From NCBI RefSeq assembly GCF_042100115.1, contig NC_091274.1, positions 2,790,001 through 2,854,000 of the forward strand: a stretch of 64,000 nt of DNA, read 5' to 3'. The notes under the pieces are model-generated. The model was not told the DNA's origin and searched no databases. It worked only from the letters and a program-made list of their open reading frames with translations. The stretch comes from Alternaria dauci. Its lineage: Eukaryota; Ascomycota; Dothideomycetes; Pleosporales; Pleosporaceae. Position 1 is the first letter of the stretch. The number at the start of each line of letters is the position of its first letter. The translations under genes and the position numbers were made by a program. Below, piece by piece: positions 18,121-39,110 of the stretch.

Positions 18121-19737
18121 CTAATCAGAATCAGAATCTCTTGTCTGACGATAGAAGGCTCGAAATGAAGAATGGACCTCTTTCGGTTTTTCTTCCTTCC
18201 GTCTTCGACCGTTGTTACCACCTAACGAGCGAATGCGAGTAGTCTTGAGCCTTGCTTCACTGGCAGAGTCTGATTGCGCTAACTTCAAAGGGGCCAAAGG
18301 TGCTTTGGATGTTTCCGGAATGATACGCGGTATGGGACCCATCTGACGGTCGGAAAATTCGTTTGGTTGTTGGAATCGAGGTGTGGGTGATCGTGACGTG
18401 GGATTCATGACATGGCTAGGAAAGGGGTTATGAGCGTATGGATCCGAAGGCGTTTGAGGAGGCGGAGAGCGTGTCATTGCGTCAACTATGGGCATTGGTG
18501 GCCTGAGTTGTGTGGAAGACTCTGGCGAAATTGGGAGAGCAGAAGTACCCGGTGACAACGACAGCTCTTGAGACTCCAATACCGGTGGGCAGTCATGCAT
18601 CTCGATATCCAAATCGACAGGCGCTGCCGCACCAAATGTAGAGTGCTCTTCAACGTCAGCGTGGTGACGCTTGCGTGCGTCAGATTCTCCGGCCTTTAAC
18701 CAAGTGTTGGTCGTGGGGTCTGAATTCAGAGCAGGAAATCTTTGCCAGAACACCTGTTTTGCGGCGTAGGTACGGCTCTCTTCACGTGCCCTTCGCATTC
18801 TTGGATCCTGGCACAGTGGACTCCATGCGGCATGGTTCCTTCCACAGTTGACACAACACTCCGGCCCTTTGCAACGACCGTCCCATGCATTGTGCTCTTT
18901 CGTCTGCTTCCCGCAACGTAGGCAAAACGGTTTGGAACGATCTGGGCATTGAGTCTTGAGATGGCCAGGCTTTCCACATGCGTGGCACTGTTTCGGTGTA
19001 GAGCGCTTGTCGAAAGCTGCCGCAGTTGCCTGGTAACCGCTGAGCCACACTGTACCGTCTTTGACGAGCTTCTGTGCATCACCAAGGCGATCAAGAGTCC
19101 ATACAAGCTTCTTGTATGTCCATCGGGCGCCAGTAATATGAACCTTGTTCCGCGTGCTCCAATCTTTGATGAATTTTTCGGGACACTTGAATTCGCCATC
19201 TTGTCGAAAGTTGAAGTTGTAGATCTGAACTTGATAGGTTGGTCGTAGTAAGTAACAGTCATCCTTCGCTACCCCGAGCATCGGCCCAATCTCATGTTGG
19301 TGAGCGTGGAGGGCTGCCTCTGCTTCTGGGTTGGACACCATGAGAACTAAGGCAGTCGCATGAACCCGACATGCCTGGACCTGGTCGAATGGAGCCTTGT
19401 GTTGTCTGATCAGGCTTACAATCTCTGCGTTTGTCAACCTGTCGATCACTCCTCCGGCGTCATTGCGGAGGCCGAACTTGATCTCGTATGACTGTTGATG
19501 AGATGTTTTTGCAGGTGCAAGAGGAGAGTTGCGATTGTTCATGTGGAAGTTTCGTTGACTTTCTTCGAGCATACGCAGGCGTGTTTCGACATGCCGCTGA
19601 CCTCTATCATCTGCTGAGACTGGAGGGTGGAGAATGACATCCCGAATGCCTAGCTTCTCAAACAAATGGAGTTGCTCTTCGTTGAGCGAGCCCACAAACT
19701 TTTCGAATTTTGCATGCTGATCAGATGAAGAGGCCAT
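18121..19737 (-). CDS. LINE ORF1-like protein with three zinc knuckles
   Basis: An intact frame of about 538 residues from the ATG at 19737; the frame is open up to 19974 but that leader looks like untranslated sequence. Three consecutive zinc knuckles sit in the middle: CHACGKPGHLKTQC (CCHC, C-x2-C-x4-H-x4-C), CLRCGKQTKEH and CVNCGRNHAAWSPLC. The last, with H-AWS-C, is characteristic of ORF1 proteins of fungal Tad-like LINE elements, which bind element RNA. The N-terminal part (KFEKFVGSLNEEQLHLFEKL) is charged and helical; the C-terminal third is Pro/Ser-rich and disordered, ending in a basic stretch. In a normal LINE this gene precedes the reverse transcriptase gene on the same strand. Here it points away from it. 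No stop or frameshift is seen. Confidence 0.82.
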   Translation of the reverse strand: MASSSDQHAKFEKFVGSLNEEQLHLFEKLGIRDVILHPPVSADDRGQRHVETRLRMLEESQRNFHMNNRNSPLAPAKTSHQQSYEIKFGLRNDAGGVIDRLTNAEIVSLIRQHKAPFDQVQACRVHATALVLMVSNPEAEAALHAHQHEIGPMLGVAKDDCYLLRPTYQVQIYNFNFRQDGEFKCPEKFIKDWSTRNKVHITGARWTYKKLVWTLDRLGDAQKLVKDGTVWLSGYQATAAAFDKRSTPKQCHACGKPGHLKTQCPDRSKPFCLRCGKQTKEHNAWDGRCKGPECCVNCGRNHAAWSPLCQDPRMRRAREESRTYAAKQVFWQRFPALNSDPTTNTWLKAGESDARKRHHADVEEHSTFGAAAPVDLDIEMHDCPPVLESQELSLSPGTSALPISPESSTQLRPPMPIVDAMTRSPPPQTPSDPYAHNPFPSHVMNPTSRSPTPRFQQPNEFSDRQMGPIPRIIPETSKAPLAPLKLAQSDSASEARLKTTRIRSLGGNNGRRRKEEKPKEVHSSFRAFYRQTRDSDSD

Positions 19738-20668
19738 GATGAGATGTCGATGACAGGAAGAGGCGACAGTGTTACAGAGTGCAAGAAGAAACTGGGTATG
19801 TGATTCGAATAGACAAGGAGATGAGGGTGCGTAGAGATGAAGACATCTATTGAGACAGAGATATTGCGAAGATGAATCATCCTTCTTACGAGGCGCATTT
19901 AGTCCATGCTTGCCCTCGATGGGGTTGACGTGAGACTTCAATCCTTCAATCACGGCCATTCTCTCCGCATGCACCTAGGTCCGAAAGCAACAACCACTGA
20001 CTCTCCAATATTGAGTTTCAACCAAGGACATCCATGATCCCGTAAGCCCCTCACATTATCCAAGACAAGAGTGAGCTGTTAGTCGCTTCCGCCGTGCTGG
20101 GCAGTGTCCGGAGTCATGCCGGCGCAACACATTTCTGACACGGAATTTATATTAGTAAAACTACTAGATATGCTTCCAAACCGAATTGGGGATGTGGTTG
20201 ACAACTCGTCCGGCGAGAATGGCGATGCTCGGATGAGGTTGGGAGTGTTGACCGACGTCCCTAGCGGCATTGGAGACAGCGATACGTACCCGTGTGCACG
20301 CGCCGCGCCCGCGCCCCCAGCGACTACTTAGACGGCAGGGACCGCCCCACTTGTGTAGCATGATACTCGGGCGAATCTTAGGTAGCATGTGTTTCAAGAT
20401 AGTCGGATATACAACAACAGGCCGACGATATTGACGCACGAGATGCACGAGATGCACGAGCGCACGCTTGCGCTGGATCACACCTGCGCTGGATCACATC
20501 TGTACTGGATTCCACGCTTGCGCTGGATCACTCACTGCGACCGTATGCCTATACACATTGCCTTGGCCACGCCAAAGCAGAAGCTAGACCACTATCACAA
20601 CATTTGTTCCCACGAACAATGTCAGCAATGGTAGTATATCTTTGTTCTACATTGCGAGATTCTTGAGG
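19738..20668. promoter_or_regulatory. Head-to-head spacer between ORF1-like and EN/RT genes
   Basis: About 930 bases separate the two divergent start codons. The segment must contain both 5' ends and includes the short tandem repeats near 20.45-20.53 kb. I see no further gene. Confidence 0.4.
20441..20531. repeat. Imperfect short tandem repeats in the divergent spacer
   Basis: The hexamer-like unit GAGATGCAC is doubled near 20441-20460. It is followed by three or four copies of a unit containing GCGCTGGATCAC at about 20470-20531; one longer form, ACGCTTGCGCTGGATCAC, occurs twice. Confidence 0.6.
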
Positions 20669-23600
20669 ATGCCGTATCCTCGACAGACTGCCCACAATTC
20701 GTTCAGGCGCACGCCCTCGCCAACACCTTCGCCACTTCGAGCTCTCACTGCGGCCCCGCTGGCCCTCTACGACTTCCCCTCACCATACGTGGACACTGCA
20801 AACGAGCATAATGCAGCCTCGATTAATCAGAGTGAGAGAGCCCCCAACCGGTTTGTAGTTTGCCGCTAAACATATCAGCAGATGCAACTGGCCACACAGC
20901 CACTCTGCGCCCGCAGCAAGCAGTACCTTCACTCAATGCATTCACGCAACTTTACCAGCCGGTCAGCGATGGCTCGGCCAGCGATCCCCAAACCACCGAG
21001 ACCTCGCCTTGCGGTACATGCCCCAAGCCCTTCAACGACATGTATACCGTCAACATGAAGTGTTCATGGAAGAGATACAAGAACTTCAGAGACCATTTGC
21101 TCAGGTTATCAGCCGATTACAAGGCAAGCAAGAAAAGCGAAGCCCGGCGGCCGCCTGCCATCATCTGTGTGCAGGATCCACCACCCCACATCGCCTATCA
21201 CAAGATCTCCGGTTACCGTTGCGAGTTTCACATTCGCCAGCATCTGAAGCCGGCCGATTACCCGTTCTTGTACAGTTTATCAGGACAATTGACTCATCTT
21301 GACAAGAAGAAGGCGAAGAGAGTGGCAAAGGCAGCACAAGTTCATCAGGTGACTCTGTCGACTATCGATCTAGGTGTGCGGAGGGCCAACGAGAGTGTAG
21401 TGTCGCAACTAAGGGAAGAGAGTACAGCCCTCAGTTTCAAGAGGCTGGCTGATCTTATGGGCTTACGACAAGTCGCATTCTTCATACGCGATGATGTACC
21501 GAAGAGGGATACACGCGTCATCCCCCATCGCGGCTTCAACGAACCATACGCCGCCACGCTCGAAGTCGATACCCAGTCAGGCACACTCTGCATGCACAAC
21601 ATGTACAACCACGAGAAGAAGATTAACATAGCAGAGTTGAAGGAGCAATGTATGCAGTCGGACAATGACATGCTTGTTGGGGATTCCAACCTGCATCACA
21701 AACTCTGGGGCGGGAATATCGTTGCCGTCGCAGCTTCAACAGACGCGTTGTCTTCTCAACTAGCTGCAGCCTTGCAAGAGACTGGTATGCAGACCTGTTT
21801 GTCATCTGGGACCATCACGTATGCTCCTGGGCTCCGGACGACCTCAGCACGCAAAACCTCGATTGACATTGTCTTTTCCAGCACGTGTCTACGACCACGC
21901 ATCCATGACTGCGCTCCCATCGAAGTCAGAGGATATGAATCTGACCACGCTGTCATCAAAATGTCTATTGATTTGGAGCCAAGTTCTGCTCCACCTAGAG
22001 CCCGAAAGCTCTACGAGGAGATCGACCATGCCTTCAAACAAGACCTCATCACACGCATCAAGAGTTTTGTGCGACGTCCCAGCGACTTGGTTGTTGAGTA
22101 TGGTGCGCACGTTGTTCAATGTATCGCTGGTGCAGAAGAGCTTGTACCTACCCAGCGTACCATTGCGCGAGTAAAGCCTCCAACCCCCGAGCACTTTGCG
22201 CAGAAGCTTGAGATCGAGCGCAAAGCATTGCTAGCGCTGGAAAGGAGACCAACCGCCGAGAACGTGAAGCGTTTCGAGGAAGCCAGGCGGGATCTCGATA
22301 AAGACATCGCTGCAGAGAGCAGGAAGTCCTTCCGTGATGGAGTGGATCGCTCATCCGAGAAATTGCGGTGGCGCCACTATACCTGGGCCCGGCACGCTCA
22401 AACATGGAATCAACCTCAACAAGCGCCCACTATGCCCGTTCTCCAAGTCGGCGACAAAACCTTCATGACGATCGAAGAGAAAGCCAACTTGTACGCCCAC
22501 ACCATTTGGCCGGAAGTTCGCAATCACACAGATGGTGACGCTAGCTCGCCGACCTTGCCACATTTCCATCCACGGGAGCAATTATCATGCAATCAGTTCG
22601 TCACAGAGAAAGAGGTACTTGGCACCATAAAGGACCTATCGGATCATAAAGCACCCGGTTCCGATCGAATTAGTAACGAACTGCTGAAAACCTGCGCCAA
22701 GGAACTCGCGCCAATTTTGGCAGACCTCTTTACCGATATGTTCATACAGAGTGTCCACCTCAAGGAGTTCAAGCACGCCATTACCACCCTGCTACTCAAG
22801 TCAGGGAAGCATCCAGCTCTCCCGAAGAGCTATCGGCCTGTTGCACTGCTTTCTTGTCTAGGAAAGGTTTTTGAGAAGTTGATTGCGAATCGCTTCAGAT
22901 ATCTTGCCGAGACTCACAACCTGCTTCCAAATTTGCAGTTTGGGGCTCCTGGCCGTGATACGACGAAAGCGTTGCAAGCAATTCTCAGCCCAGTCTATAC
23001 GGGCTGGTGCACAAAGCAAAAGACAACGATATTGAGCCTCGACATCACGGGCGCTTTCGATCGTGTCAACCGAGCAAAGCTGCTTCAGATTCTCGTGGAC
23101 AAAGGCATTCCTGATTGGCTTGTTCGCTTGACTGCTTCGTTTCTCTCAGAACGAAGTACCACACTGAATATGCTTGGAACCATGTCGGAGCCGTTCTGGG
23201 TCGACATTGGCATACCCCAAGGAAGTCCTCTTTCACCTATCCTGTTTCTCTTCTCCGCTGGCGATCTACACTCGCTTTTCGGAAAGAAGGATTACATCCT
23301 GTCCAATGCTAAAGTCCACTGCTTCGCCTACGTCGACGATACCTATCTTATGGTAACCTCTCCCACATACGAGAAGAACATCGAGATCCTCGAGGATATG
23401 CACGCCAAGGTTCTCCGTTGGGCAGAGGATAACGGATACGAATTCGGTGCACACAAATACTCGCTCATGCACTTTCGCAGTCATCATAAAGCGCCAGTGT
23501 GTACTCTACTTCCGAACAACATTCCGAATTTCGGTGAAGGCCGTGACGTGACCGACCCAGTTCTGAGGACTGATACAGAACCAATGAACATCCTCGGTGT

Positions 23601-24780
23601 TTTAGTCGGCCCTCGACTACGTTGGGATCAGCATATCACCGCTATCGAAGAAAAGGTTGGGCATAAACTTCGTGCCCTTTTGCGCATTACTGGATCCACA
23701 TGGGGAAGGTCTCTCCATGACATGCGCGAACTGCATCGCACCACCATCATTCCTATCATTACCTATGGATGCGGAGCCTGGTACGTCAATGTCACCGGCG
23801 AGCGCAGTAAATGGAACATTCCCAAGTGTCTCGTCAAGCGACTCCAAGATTTACAATACTCTTGCTTGATGCAGATGTCTGGAGCTTTCCATAAAACTGG
23901 AAGGAAGATCCTTGAAAAGGAACTCTTCATCGATCCCATTCAAGTCACTCTCGCAAGACTGTCCATTGCGCACCGTGTCCGTTGCTACTACGATGACGTC
24001 AGCGCTCATTGTCGGCTGGCACAGTTGGAGCGGCACAGGAGGGAACAGGTGAAGGACCACCCTTACCAGATCCTGGACCGAGAGGCCTGCAGTGTTGAGC
24101 GAGCCGCACTGGCGTTTCTTTGTCAAAGAAAGTCCAACGAATAGGCCGAGAGAGACTGGGCGAACCGTGACAAGCGTGGGAGAGCCATCAAAGTGTACCT
24201 CCAGCAATGGGCATCCTGCCAGAGTCAATATATCTGGGACGAATACCGCAACTCGCGACTCCTTCGCGGCAAGCGGGTTTGTCCAGCGTTGGATAGCGAC
24301 TTTCACGCCGAATGGGACGATCGAAGCCTTGCATGCTACAAAGGCCTGACGCGTCCTCAAAGCACAATGCTTCTACACATCCGGACTTCCTTCATTGGTC
24401 TCAACTCCCACCTGTACTCGATCAATGTAATTTCTTCTCCTCGTCTTACATCAGTCAACTTGGCTAACATATCTGCATAGTGCTCGGGGACTGAGTACTG
24501 TCCTTGCCTTCGCGAGCGGCAAACGGCAAAACATCTCCTCTTGGACTGCACTCTGCTATCCGAACAACGTGGCGCTTTGGTGAATGCGATTGGTCACCTC
24601 AACCTCCCGGACATGTTGACCAAGGACGCTTTCGAAACGACACGCTGGGCGGTCATGCACTTTGGCATTCCGCAATGGCATCTGGCTAAGACCGATGCGC
24701 AACGATGGAAAGTTCCTGAGCGCAAGGAGAAGAAGAAGAAGAAGCGTAGACCACGTCAAGGCGCTGGAGGTCACTGTTGA
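20669..24780 (+). pseudogene. LINE-type endonuclease/reverse transcriptase gene with spliceosomal introns and one nonsense codon
   Basis: Exons 20669-20831, 20879-24426 and 24481-24780 splice into one frame of 1337 codons, broken only by TAG at 24142-24144. The introns are canonical: GTGAGA...CTAAAC...CAG (47 bases) and GTAATT...GGCTAAC...TAG (54 bases). The N-terminal half is an APE-type endonuclease (GDSNLHHKLWGG, SIDIVFSS, ESDHAVIKM). The reverse transcriptase carries SYRPVALLSCLGKVFEK, LSLDITGAFDRVN, GIPQGSPLSP and the catalytic YVDD box. After the stop the same frame continues (AERDWANRDKRGR, then KGLTRPQSTMLLHIRT) to the CPC...H...C zinc motif of LINE C-termini, completed by splicing. 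No RNase H domain lies between. The TAG could be a CAG-to-TAG change, or could be spliced out with 24049-24144. A strict reading is a recently inactivated or domesticated Tad-like LINE gene. Confidence 0.8.
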
Positions 24781-35404: not shown

Positions 35405-36383
35405 TTACTGCTTCTGCTCCGTCTTCTTAGGAAGCAAGTTCCTCAGCGACAGATCGTAAACCACATCCTCGACATCTTTGACCCTGTACTTCAATCCATC
35501 GCTACGGCGGCGCAAACTGTCGTTCTTAAGGTTGAGGATCTGGAAGCCCGCGTGCAAATCCTTGACGAACTGGTTGATGAGAAGCGGGCGCTCGTAATCA
35601 CCCAGGGTGACGGCGTTACGTGCAAGGCGTGTCAGTTCCTCGACTAGCGTCATGAGAGAATGGAGGTACTCTTCGAGCGAGAGGTGGAACTCATCGCGGT
35701 CCTTGAGGTTCACAGGAACTGGCCATGTCAGCTGTGCGCAGATGAAGCGGGTATCTAGGCATACTCTTGAAGATCTCGCCGAGCTCCTCGATGGTCAACA
35801 GGCGGCCGCACTGTACTTCGCCACCATCATACTTGAAGCCGCCGAGCCACCCCCAGAACAAAGCGCTCTCACACTATTGTCTTGTCAATTTTTTCGTCGC
35901 GGGTTTTGCGTGCCTGGTGAGCTTACCGCGCCCTGCATCTGCCGGCTCCACATGTTGTTGAACTTGTAGTACGGCATCTTTGACGCAGCCTGGGACAGCT
36001 GGCCGACAGTGGCAATCACATTGTCAATTGGCTCCTGAGCAGCCTTGAGGATGTCAGGTACTGTGGTTGTATTAGTCGTGATATCGATGGACCTGCGACA
36101 AGCGACTCACGCTCGTTCACCGGTGTCGAATGGGCTCTTGACAGCACAAATGAGACATTGCGGTCTACAACTGGTTAGATAACTTCATGCGCCTAGCTTA
36201 GGGAGCCTACTGTGCTTCTCGAGTGCCTGTATGATGTCGCGCAGCTCCTGTCGCGTCGTGAGTACGCTATCACGTGCAGCTTCATCAGGCGCCACTCACA
36301 TCCCGAACGGCCGTGTCTTCGTCTACGCGCGCCTGGAGGTCCTGGAAGATGGCCGGATTGACCATGCCTGACTTGGCTGCCAT
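35405..36383 (-). CDS. Translin
   Basis: Six exons, 36300-36383, 36211-36247, 36111-36164, 35927-36060, 35765-35873 and 35405-35718, splice without a stop to about 243 residues, close to the translin length. Translin is a single-stranded nucleic acid binding protein that forms octamers and, with TRAX, the C3PO endoribonuclease complex. The long helices typical of the family are visible: the N-terminal IFQDLQARVDEDTAVRDEL, the middle FWGWLGGFKYDGG and IEELGEIFK, and the C-terminal SLEEYLHSLMTLVEELTRLA, ARNAVTLGDY and LNLKNDSLRRRSDGLKY. The very small exons of 37 and 54 bases are supported by strong splice sites on both sides. A TRAX partner gene is not in this window. Confidence 0.88.
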
Positions 36384-37002
36384 TTTGACGTGTGTACGCG
36401 TGTAGGGTGTTGTTGCGAAGAAGATTGTGCAGGTGGTGATGTCGTTGTTTGTTCGTTACGACAAGCTACGAAATTTCGGCCTCTCACTGTTCACCAGCCA
36501 TAGTCACCGCTGTCTCATCGCAAGCGCACAATGCATGCTCCCGACCGCTTTGGAAGTATCTACAGAACCTACAGAACCAAGGAGCATATCTTTACGTCTC
36601 ATGAACCAACCGTCCTTGCGTAACAATACATAGGCCGTATGGAGAGGACCAGCGATATGTGCACACGCCACCAACGTTGGTACGAAAGAAAGCGGCCTCA
36701 ATTTGAGCATCTGCAAGCCATACCAGGGAAAAATCGAATACACTACATTAGGCAACTACAGAGGAAGCGTTCGATTTAACGCTTGCATGGCGTTGCTGTA
36801 AATTCCACCTCGACCCTTACATTAACGGAAAAACACAGCCTCGCGTGCCACCGATAACAAGCGCCTCAATGGCATATTCTCATGCTGCAACAGTCTCGAG
36901 CCGCCTGCGCAAGGCATGTCAAGCGCCTTGCTCTCAAACTGTTACACAAAGGAACTCCTTCCTCAAGGTTCTCGCAAGCGAAAACACCCAATGAAAAAGT
37001 TT
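36384..37002. other. Intergenic between translin and U2 snRNA genes
   Basis: It contains the translin promoter and the region downstream of the U2 snRNA. No gene is seen. Confidence 0.4.
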
Positions 37003-37244
37003 GCGTCTGCCGGAGATAGTGCGATACCGGCGACACAGTGCTAGAGAGGATAAGCAAGCCCAGAGCCCCTCCAGCCTGTTTCAAAAATAAGGATAATCTT
37101 GAATTTTCCCGTAGGAAAGTTTCAGAGATTAAACTGAAAAGAACAGACTGGTGTATCGTTAGCGCACGGACGCATTTTGACTTAGACTAAAGTGGGGCCA
37201 GGCTTACTACTACACTTGATCTAAGCCAAAAGGCAAAGAGAGCT
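37003..37244 (-). ncRNA. U2: U2 snRNA gene interrupted by a spliceosomal intron
   Basis: Read on the minus strand, exon 1 (37208-37244) begins AGCTCTCTTTGCCTTTTGGC and ends ATCAAGTGTAGTA, the fungal U2 5' end with the GUAGUA branch-site recognition element. Exon 2 (37003-37147) resumes TCTGTTCTTTTCAG, exactly as in uninterrupted U2. It continues with stem-loop II, an Sm site (ATTTTTGA, 37081-37088), stem-loop III (GCTGGAGGGG pairing with CCTCTCTAGC, 37040-37075) and stem-loop IV (GCCGG...CCGGC, 37009-37031), whose loop closely matches the vertebrate U2 loop bound by the U2A'/U2B'' proteins. Without the intron the RNA is about 182 bases, the normal size. The mature 5' and 3' ends are estimates to within a few bases. 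The snRNA base-pairs with intron branch sites in the spliceosome. Confidence 0.9.
37148..37207 (-). other. mRNA-type intron inside the U2 snRNA gene
   Basis: Sixty bases with donor GTAAGC, branch sequence GCGCTAAC (about 12 bases before the acceptor) and acceptor CACCAG. Removing them restores GTAGTA-TCTGTTC, the invariant U2 sequence. Shifting the donor by three bases would delete one GTA of the recognition element, so this placement is the only one that gives canonical U2. Confidence 0.88.
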
Positions 37245-37278
37245 GAGGAATAGGAAAGGAGGACGAGGGCGGGCGAGG

Positions 37279-37285
37279 TTATATA
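37279..37285 (-). promoter_or_regulatory. TATA box of the U2 snRNA gene
   Basis: TATATAA on the minus strand, centred about 38 bases upstream of the estimated U2 5' end. This fits an RNA polymerase II snRNA promoter. Confidence 0.65.
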
Positions 37286-38068
37286 GACAGTGTGGCCTTG
37301 GCGCGCTAGCGGTCCCGTGACCAGGCACAGCTCTCTGGGGTGGGGCGGTCCGGCAGAACTTCGGGTCCAGGCTCGCCTGTCGGACAGGCGGTGGTGAGAG
37401 TGAACCACGCACATTACCTCTGCTGATTCACACACTTTCCACCAGCCTTCACTGAAAGGGTACAGCAGCGATATCACGGACTGGCTTCACCGTATGCCAG
37501 TGAGACCGCTATCGAGGCACAGGACCCTTGTAGGCGAAAGGGACGGGCAGGGCTTTCACATCCACGTTGAAGGTATCGGTGAGGAGTTTTGTGGCTCATG
37601 GTCACAATCTTTCTTGCACGCTATACAAGATCAGAACCGAACACCCTACCAGACAACTACGGGGCGAGCAAGCGATCTCCGTTGTACGGCGATACTCTAC
37701 CTATCTAGGCAACTATGGGGGTGCCCAGGTGGTGTTGGACTTTACCTTGTATGGCGTGCCTGATCCTTACATGAGTTTTGTGCTGATATCAACGATGGCA
37801 TTACCCTTGTGCACAGGCAAACGTGTTGGGTTATATTTTGATTTCATATATGCTGATAACGAATAGATAGGAGCGTTGTGCAACAGCGACGAGTATACTA
37901 TTTCGCCATTCGAGCGGAGCTCATACCGCAATATCGCGCGCCCAGCACCATACTGAGCTGCCCTGCTTCTTCGCGATGCTGAGACCTCTTCTGAAGGAAA
38001 CTTTATTCCTGTAGCAGACCAGCTCGCCGTCCGCTTGCCTGCCACGACGCGCCTCATTCGCCCTTCTC
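37286..38068. other. Intergenic upstream of U2, no gene seen
   Basis: It holds the upstream promoter part of the U2 gene and the 3' flank of the next minus-strand gene. Short frames here have no gene character. Confidence 0.4.
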
Positions 38069-38732
38069 CTACCTCAGCCGCTTCGTAAGGACAGGCCTGC
38101 CATGGATCATTCGATACCTGATTCTCAACTTGACGATGCGACGCTCCTTCAAGGCCGCGGCCCTTGCACGAGTTTGGCGGACTTCCACCTGCACCGGCTC
38201 AACCACCGCCGGCTTCACATCGACAGCAGTGCCCAGCGCCTCCGACGCGGCCAGCTCGCGAGCGTGAAATTCGCAGCTCAAGAACCTCGCCTCGTCACAG
38301 AACCAGTCGAAGCTTTGCGCACAGTCTGCTCGTTCCGACGTGATATATTGCCGTCCCTCGATGAGCAGGGCTTTGCCGTACAGTAGTTGAGTCGCCCAGC
38401 TATTGTCATCGCGTACGATCATCATGTTTAGCGCGTGTATATTAAAGTCTTCATCCTTCTCACGACTGTCGCCTTTCAGTGGATTTGACGCGTGACGCAA
38501 GCGAGGAGCGATGGCGTAGAGGAAAAGAGGGCTGCGTAAGAGGAAGCAAAGGTCGTCTTCGGTCACTGTCAGTCGCCATACATCTATACGCACTTGGCTA
38601 CTTACCGAGAAGCTGCTTCCGATCGTGTGGTGGTAATTTTCCTGGCAGCCGATCGAGCCAACCGTGGATATGGCTGCGCAGTGGATCTCCTGGTGCACCG
38701 CGCCGTGGCGATAGAATGAGCCGGAGTTTCAT
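38069..38732 (-). CDS. Hypothetical protein
   Basis: Exons 38606-38732 and 38069-38565 with a 40-base intron (GTAAGT donor, CGACTGACAG end) give about 207 residues. The N-terminus is basic and amphipathic (MKLRLILSPRRGAPGDPL), the middle helical (EDDLCFLLRSPLFLYAIAPR, then NDNSWATQLL-like text), and the C-terminus strongly basic (RQTRARAAALKERRIVKLR). A nucleic-acid-binding or mitochondrial role would fit the charge, but I recognise no family. The splice gives a better N-terminus than the unspliced frame, which would start in a sequence with poor composition. Confidence 0.6.
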
Positions 38733-39110
38733 CTTTGTCGTGGTCTTGGTTTGGTTTCTGCGCTCAACCTGAAGGTAGTCTTTGCGTTATCTGGTACTTG
38801 TCTCGGTGATTGCGCTAAGTGAGAGCAGAAGATCGTGGCCAGCGACACCCTCGTGATAGTTTGAGTGGGTCGAGAACTCTCCCCGATGGGGCTATGGTCT
38901 TCAAACGATGATCAGGCTATCTTTCACTACTCGTACTGTGCCTAATCTCTTACGTTGGTCATGCTGGCTTTCACCAGTACTACAAGGTGAGGGCAGTATC
39001 GTTTGATCCACTTCGTGATATCATTGCTTCGGGTAATAGCCACCACTCTTCATGATGCACATCGGGTTTCACGGCCTCACAAGCCTTATCCCACGCCTCT
39101 CCTCATCTGT
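38733..39110. other. Intergenic, no gene seen
   Basis: It spans the promoter of the preceding minus-strand gene and the 3' flank of the first tandem paralogue. Confidence 0.35.

Follow-up and report, generated by a model that had tools for sequence, protein, structure and literature searches.

What kind of gene has 60 bases with the look of an mRNA intron set into a U2 snRNA sequence directly after the branch-site recognition element, and does it still work? We addressed this question for a locus in the window, i.e. the whole stretch of 64,000 nucleotides of Alternaria dauci DNA that was analysed. The single Rfam match in the window at the gathering threshold is that of the U2 family (RF00004). 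It covers positions 36995-37246 on the minus strand and, with the insert included, attains 92.4 bits, where the gathering score is 46. The Rfam alignment follows exon 1 to GUGUAGUA and then omits stems IIa and IIb, because 60 bases intervene. The complete U2 gene spans positions 37003-37244 of the minus strand (Table 1). Its exon 1 reads AGCTCTCTTTGCC...GTGTAGTA in 5' to 3' direction, and exon 2 begins with TCTGTTCTTTTCAG and runs to the end of stem-loop IV. Once the intron is removed, the window copy has GUAGUA, the stems I, IIa, IIb, III and IV, and the Sm site. Its predicted pairing with the genome's own U6 amounts to -13.3 kcal/mol for helix II and -5.3 kcal/mol for helix I. The coordinates, TATA box, Sm site and splice motifs given in the initial annotation all proved correct.

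Table 1. Positions of the elements of the split U2 gene in the window, and of a paralogue elsewhere in the genome.
Feature	Position	Strand	Evidence or content
Upstream element TAGCGCGCCAAGGCCA...	37290..37308	-	Pattern scan and reading of its output
TATA box TATATAA	37279..37285	-	41 nt to the first base of AGCT
U2 exon 1 (37 nt)	37208..37244	-	Rfam alignment; exact block 1-37 of the joined query; 37/37 identical in L002. Contains the approximate 5' end, U2/U6 helix II strand, stem I, helix I strand, GTAGTA
mRNA-type intron (60 nt)	37148..37207	-	Homologous 62-nt intron at the identical site in L002
Intron donor GTAAGC	37202-37207	-	
Branch-site motif CTAAC	37158..37162	-	10 nt from the intron 3' end; kept in L002
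Intron acceptor CAG	37148-37150	-	Intron ends GCTAACGATACACCAG
U2 exon 2 (about 145 nt, 3' end approximate)	37003..37147	-	Rfam alignment; exact block 38-182; covarying pairs. Contains TCTGTTC, stems IIa and IIb, Sm site, stem-loops III and IV
Sm site ATTTTTG	37082..37088	-	Read from the sequence, aligned across paralogues
3' element TTTTTCATTG - hairpin - TTGAGGAAG	36955..36999	-	Present 3' of all four U2 genes
L004, U2 paralogue with two intron-like inserts	G000:C5:528528-528782 and upstream	minus strand of contig	

The assembly comprises 34.9 Mb in 10 contigs, and its protein matches point to the Pleosporales: a beta-glucosidase has 89-90% identity with named Alternaria entries and 88% with Ascochyta rabiei, and a faster-evolving protein has 62% with Alternaria burnsii. 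Searched throughout, the assembly revealed that the window copy belongs to a small gene family. At least four U2 loci lie above the Rfam cut-off, namely L001 (109.8 bits), L002 (96.6 bits), the window copy (92.4 bits) and L004 (85 bits), where the scores of the latter three include their inserts. All copy numbers are lower bounds, since the searches score the best candidates only. With the spliced 182-nt sequence as query the same four loci and no other were retrieved from the whole genome. The intact 15-mer across the exon junction occurs at exactly two sites of the genome, L001 and L004; three more sites have one mismatch and 60 have two, which gives a total of 65 versus 81 for the reversed-pattern control. 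The window copy and L002 are therefore interrupted at one and the same site, at which L001 and L004 are continuous. L002 has a 62-nt intron that is homologous to the window intron and located at the identical U2 position. In all, four introns at three sites were found in three of the four U2 genes, and L001 is the only uninterrupted one among the loci found.

The joined exons match the window locus in two blocks that are both 100% identical, with bases 1-37 of the query corresponding to 37208-37244 and bases 38-182 to 37003-37147. In the whole-genome search the break falls exactly at 37/38. When we used a profile of the Rfam consensus line, which is a sequence-only profile and not a covariance model, the gene without the 60 bases gave a continuous match of 48.2 bits, versus 21.7 bits and a separate piece of 11.4 bits with them. 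GUAGUA and UCUGUUC, which flank the insert, are contiguous in the Rfam consensus. Among the 127,882 60-mers of the window (both strands) only three have the pattern GT...CTAAY...CAG with the branch motif at the usual distance, and a donor of the type GTA[AC]G[CT] is found in this intron only.

As a reference we took 15 introns from four tubulin genes and a DAK gene. They were picked such that joining the exons restores the conserved peptide, which is a matter of judgement and of known tubulin sequence. These introns are 48-134 nt long (median 56). Their donors are GTACGT and GTGAGT (four each), GTATGT (three) and GTAAGT, GTAAGC, GTATGC and GTGCGT (one each); the acceptor is CAG in ten and TAG in five cases, and a CTAAC branch is present in 4/15. 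The U2 introns measure 60 nt in the window copy, 62 nt in L002, and 55 and 62 nt in L004. They have the donors GTAAGC (window copy and L002) or GTACGT and GTACGC (L004), a CTAAC or CTAAT branch, and a CAG acceptor throughout. Judged against the 15 reference introns, their length and signals fit those usual for this genome. The donor together with the exon end is predicted to pair with the 5' end of the genome's own U1 at -4.5 kcal/mol in both the window copy and L002. For the two L004 introns the predicted values are -1.5 and -3.0 kcal/mol. These are weak, yet like those of the other two U2 introns they lie between the extremes of the 15 reference introns, which are -12.7 and -1.2 kcal/mol (median -4.3).

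When the window copy and L002 are compared from the 5' end through the Sm site, the exons differ at 1/104 positions (1/67 within exon 2 to the Sm site), versus 9/59 positions and four gap columns in the intron (Fisher p 0.0005). The two introns are 85% alike, and donor, branch and acceptor are kept. Stem-loops III-IV differ at 21/82 positions with five additional gap columns, and the outer flanks are alike to 49% upstream and 34% downstream. Because similarity is higher in the intron than in the outer flanks and in stem-loops III-IV, some gene conversion within the gene, or a constraint on the intron, may apply. Gene conversion may likewise account for some of the identity of the exons in these two copies. 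The predicted folds of the two introns differ, and their consensus is weak. That the window copy and L002 stem from a recent segmental duplication was considered and rejected. When the four 10-kb neighbourhoods were compared by a translated search, they matched one another in the U2 unit, and since they are alike only there in this search, they do not represent one recent segmental copy.

The four joined RNAs agree in a common U2 fold. Its 41 pairs are paired in 97.6% of the 164 cells, and both sides have changed in 19/41 pairs, including 5/5 in stem IIb and 8/10 in stem III. None of 500 shuffles attained any of the five measures, and slid partners pair at 29-48% in this test of four sequences, for which the structure was set from the window copy so that the unslid version is favoured.

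Two further introns appear to be present in L004, the first inside stem I/helix II and the second between stems IIa and IIb. The apparent 5' end of L004, as given by the covariance match, does not form the lower stem I. An AGCTCTC motif is located 40 nt from a TATA-like CATATC and directly before a stretch of 55 nt. This stretch, which would be intron 1, lies between AGCTCTC and TTTGCC and has a GTACGT donor, a CTAAC branch and a CAG acceptor. Its removal yields the 5' sequence of the window copy exactly, up to one extra A before GTGTAGTA. Intron 1 would interrupt stem I and the U2/U6 helix II strand, following a first exon of only about 7-10 nt. The putative intron 2 comprises 62 nt between stems IIa and IIb, with a GTACGC donor, a CTAAT branch and a CAG acceptor. 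In a BLAST comparison, the spliced U2 of the window matches L004 in a block that extends from base 8 (after AGCTCTC) to base 64 (adjoining the second insert).

Upon removal of both inserts the L004 profile pieces of 36.3 and 28.8 bits merge into one of 85.5 bits. Most of this gain is due to intron 2, as its removal alone already gives 80.1 bits. Removal of intron 1 adds little (80.1 to 85.5 bits with the window U2 as query, 61.4 to 63.3 with L001, 28.8 to 29.6 with the Rfam line). The predicted helix II duplex of L004, on the other hand, reaches -13.3 kcal/mol in the spliced form versus -8.2 kcal/mol in the unspliced one. It is mainly the exact AGCTCTC at the expected spacing, the splice motifs and the disruption of helix II from which intron 1 appears to be an intron. 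Both L004 introns have an AG between the branch motif and the assigned acceptor, and the acceptor was picked as the one that restores U2. Altogether, the case for the L004 introns seems thinner than that for the window intron. The Sm site of L004 is GTTTTTG.

L001 has retained good stems and an ATTTTTG Sm site. It departs from the other copies in having GACC for GATC in the helix Ia strand, a different stem I loop and a shorter stretch before the Sm site. With the U6 core of this genome L001 is predicted to form helix Ib only, with helix Ia lost (-3.2 versus -5.3 kcal/mol). The predicted helix II of L001 (-13.0 kcal/mol) is on a par with that of the other copies. In view of the divergences of L001 and L004, the most canonical U2 sequences are therefore those of the window copy and L002.

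U2 is here taken to be a Pol II gene. All four loci have flanking elements in common. The TATA spacing is 40 in L001 and L002, and also 40 in L004 when CATATC and the upstream AGCTCTC are taken. A motif around GCGCCAA is found upstream of the window copy, L004, the U4 gene L013 and the U1 gene L011, and in partial form at the U1 gene L012 and the U2 gene L001; in a pattern scan its GCCAA part was not found at L002 or at the U1 gene L010. The 3' element has the core TTTTTCATTGA - hairpin - TTGAGGAAGAAG or near, and by eye the hairpin loop is often CTTG. It also follows two of the three U1 genes (L010 and L011), the U4 gene L013 (as TTGAAGAAG) and both U3 genes, L036 and L037 (in one of them as TCGAGGAAG). 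Only its first half was seen at the U1 gene L012, and the U5 gene L009 gave no match. This element perhaps signals 3'-end processing at the small RNA genes of this fungus.

We consider it highly probable that the window copy is a functional U2 gene with its own snRNA-type promoter and with one spliceosomal intron that is removed from its transcript. That a U2 gene is split by an mRNA-type intron directly after the branch-site element, as the initial annotation had put it, is upheld by the homologous intron in L002, the conserved exons, the covarying fold, and the promoter-like and 3' elements; the splicing of pre-U2 we infer from anatomy and constraint. Pre-U2 would be transcribed from the snRNA-type promoter (TATA box and upstream element), with the common 3' element at its end. 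In the primary transcript, TCTGTTC would be separated from the branch-site recognition sequence by one intron. This intron would be excised by the spliceosome, itself containing U2, and the exons joined to give the standard U2 RNA. RNA that stayed unspliced would be without the conserved sequence beside GUAGUA. A second good acceptor, TCTTTTCAG, is located inside exon 2, 14 nt downstream, and could compete.

It is thus probable that the spliceosome must splice a component of its own. If pre-U2 is spliced like a pre-mRNA it needs the spliceosome, so that U2 would help to make U2, and the U2 from any copy would presumably serve in splicing the precursors of the other copies. Provided that the intron is spliced, U2 would mature its own precursor, as had been claimed earlier; whether this amounts to a closed loop depends on the uninterrupted L001. 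We can only tentatively suggest that U2 is an intron-invaded family in which a U2 predicted to form the full helix I is provided by interrupted genes exclusively, resulting in an autocatalytic splicing loop, and in which the three sites (helix II with stem I, the branch-site element and the IIa/IIb border) go back to separate reverse-splicing events. In such a loop the seed would be either inherited U2 or the divergent uninterrupted L001.

As three different positions are occupied within the family, at least three intron gains have to be assumed. Reverse splicing into U2 RNA and subsequent return to DNA is the mechanism that we cautiously favour, and a reverse-splicing origin of the U2 introns is plausible. 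The genome searches brought up no source intron for the window intron or for L004 intron 2. An insertion at the catalytic interface had been proposed for the window intron. Its site indeed adjoins the branch-recognition element, but this applies to only one of three positions, the two L004 sites being elsewhere and less clearly at the catalytic centre. The exon bases at the junctions (GTA/TCT, CTC/TTT and AAA/ACT, with a slash for the junction) do not form an AG/G protosplice site in any case. Alternatively, the introns could have been gained as DNA, through an introner-like mobile family or another DNA route, which would leave the gene and its splicing unchanged. The presence of several introns in one small gene family would suit such recurrent gain. 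However, in searches of the genome the window intron had no match apart from its own locus and L002, and a 131-nt L004 query that spans intron 2 hit nothing but its own locus; on these grounds an introner or mobile intron family was rejected as a candidate for these two introns. Moreover, on reading, the three intron types are alike only in their splice signals, and by eye there is no target-site duplication. We therefore regard a gain as DNA as unlikely.

Could the window copy and L002 instead be dead or dying genes, interrupted by inserted sequence, with L001 as the working U2? L001 has no interruption and scores highest with Rfam, albeit in a comparison in which the others were scored with their inserts. 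Four U2 copies leave room for decay, and given L001 expression need not come from the intron copies. The initial annotation had named an intact intronless U2 elsewhere in the genome, with this copy unexpressed, as the mark of a pseudogene. The whole-genome search did find the first half of this pair in L001, which is, however, the divergent copy. It is the interrupted copies that have the canonical core, whereas L001, with its GACC for GATC, loses helix Ia according to the duplex prediction. Furthermore, the window copy and L002 preserve their exons and splice signals, the family covaries, the TATA and 3' elements are present, and the insert has the full anatomy of an intron. Decay of the two interrupted copies is thus improbable. 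For the window copy in particular, a U2 pseudogene was rejected in view of constraint, covariation, intact flanking elements and the Sm site. Some U2 RNAs hold expansions and Rfam scores the unspliced form well above the threshold, but it is hardly conceivable that the 60 bases are retained as an expansion segment of mature U2, because they would part GUAGUA from UCUGUUC, and because donor, branch and acceptor are kept in L002 while other bases of the insert vary.

A functional U2 gene with a spliced intron, the reading that we prefer, has a counterpart in Rhodotorula hasegawae, a basidiomycete yeast whose U6 gene contains several introns. The U2 intron of this yeast is reportedly 60 bp long and located immediately 3' of the branch-site recognition region. 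Going by this reported position, the two fungi share a spliceosomal intron in U2 at the same or nearly the same site, and the window intron is a further case of the R. hasegawae kind, in another phylum. In contrast to the yeast, the host here is an ascomycete of the Pleosporales, the full U6 genes found in it are uninterrupted, and its U2 family has three intron positions. The U2 gene intron of R. hasegawae was described by Takahashi et al. (1993, Mol Cell Biol 13:5613), as cited in PMC2586383. It is the one published U2 intron that we found, by this citation, and none was found for an ascomycete, in a literature search conducted mainly outside the subscription journals. To our knowledge, the ascomycete host is new, as is the occurrence of three intron positions in one U2 family, with two of them in one gene, beside an uninterrupted copy.

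For the U6 introns of Schizosaccharomyces pombe and other fungi, a reverse-splicing origin is favoured by the authors of PMC10484740. As in the window copy, an mRNA-type intron resides in a spliceosomal RNA gene near functional nucleotides. There, however, the interrupted RNA is a Pol III transcript, whereas here it is U2, with a TATA box and a 3' element. Introns in fungal U3 snoRNA genes are spliceosomal and located near the 5' end, and some genomes have a mixture of intron-bearing and intronless paralogues; among small structured RNAs, frequent interruption is said to be known for U3 and U6 only (both from PMC5832005). From this account, the position near the 5' end resembles that of L004 intron 1. 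Since U3 acts in rRNA processing, outside the spliceosome, its introns involve no self-dependence.

Natural clues to intron gain are few, and introns of spliceosomal RNAs are among them because an intron that is reverse-spliced in the spliceosome could land in the spliceosome's own RNAs. Intron-bearing and uninterrupted U2 genes in one genome represent a natural experiment, in which gain, loss and dependence can be compared. A self-dependence would also raise the question whether splicing can restart when U2 is low, and the uninterrupted copy is a possible reserve.

No introns were found in two full and identical U6 genes, one U5, one U4 and three U1 loci. This was judged by Rfam alignment except for the U1 locus L012, which was judged from its sequence; the U1 loci score below the Rfam cut-off and are complete to the eye. 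Within the reach of these searches, snRNA introns of this genome thus seem to be confined to U2. Two further U6-like sequences are without an apparent intron. L007 (G000:C1:5437718-5437778) is a truncated piece of U6 in inverted orientation, some 230 bases away from a full U6 gene (44.4 bits versus a threshold of 44), and L008 (G000:C4:1141949-1142058) is a divergent U6-like sequence of 43.9 bits without the terminal T-run. By eye, L008 showed no convincing pairing with the divergent U2 L001.

Pattern scans of viral contigs for relatives of the gene gave no match, and a scan of genome contigs gave a single bacterial match that was taken as chance, with no Rfam match in 8 kb. A MITE-like inverted repeat lies beside L002 (L002 2045-2190), and blastn with flanks of about 1.5 kb revealed a weak, degraded likeness to it on both sides of the window U2, at about 36714-36793 and 37617-37703; inverted repeats of at least 25 nt were not found in window positions 35500-39000. 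Elsewhere in the window, a long ORF on the plus strand (20860-24144) has endonuclease and reverse transcriptase domains of a non-LTR-type retroelement. On the strand opposite to that ORF, positions 18121-19974 contain a frame with CCHC-like motifs by eye and no Pfam match. Of the two U3 snoRNA genes, L036 has no intron near its 5' end, and L037 (G000:C10:937193-937414 and just upstream) seems to bear one there, with the boundaries GTAATT...CACTAACAGCCGCGCAG.
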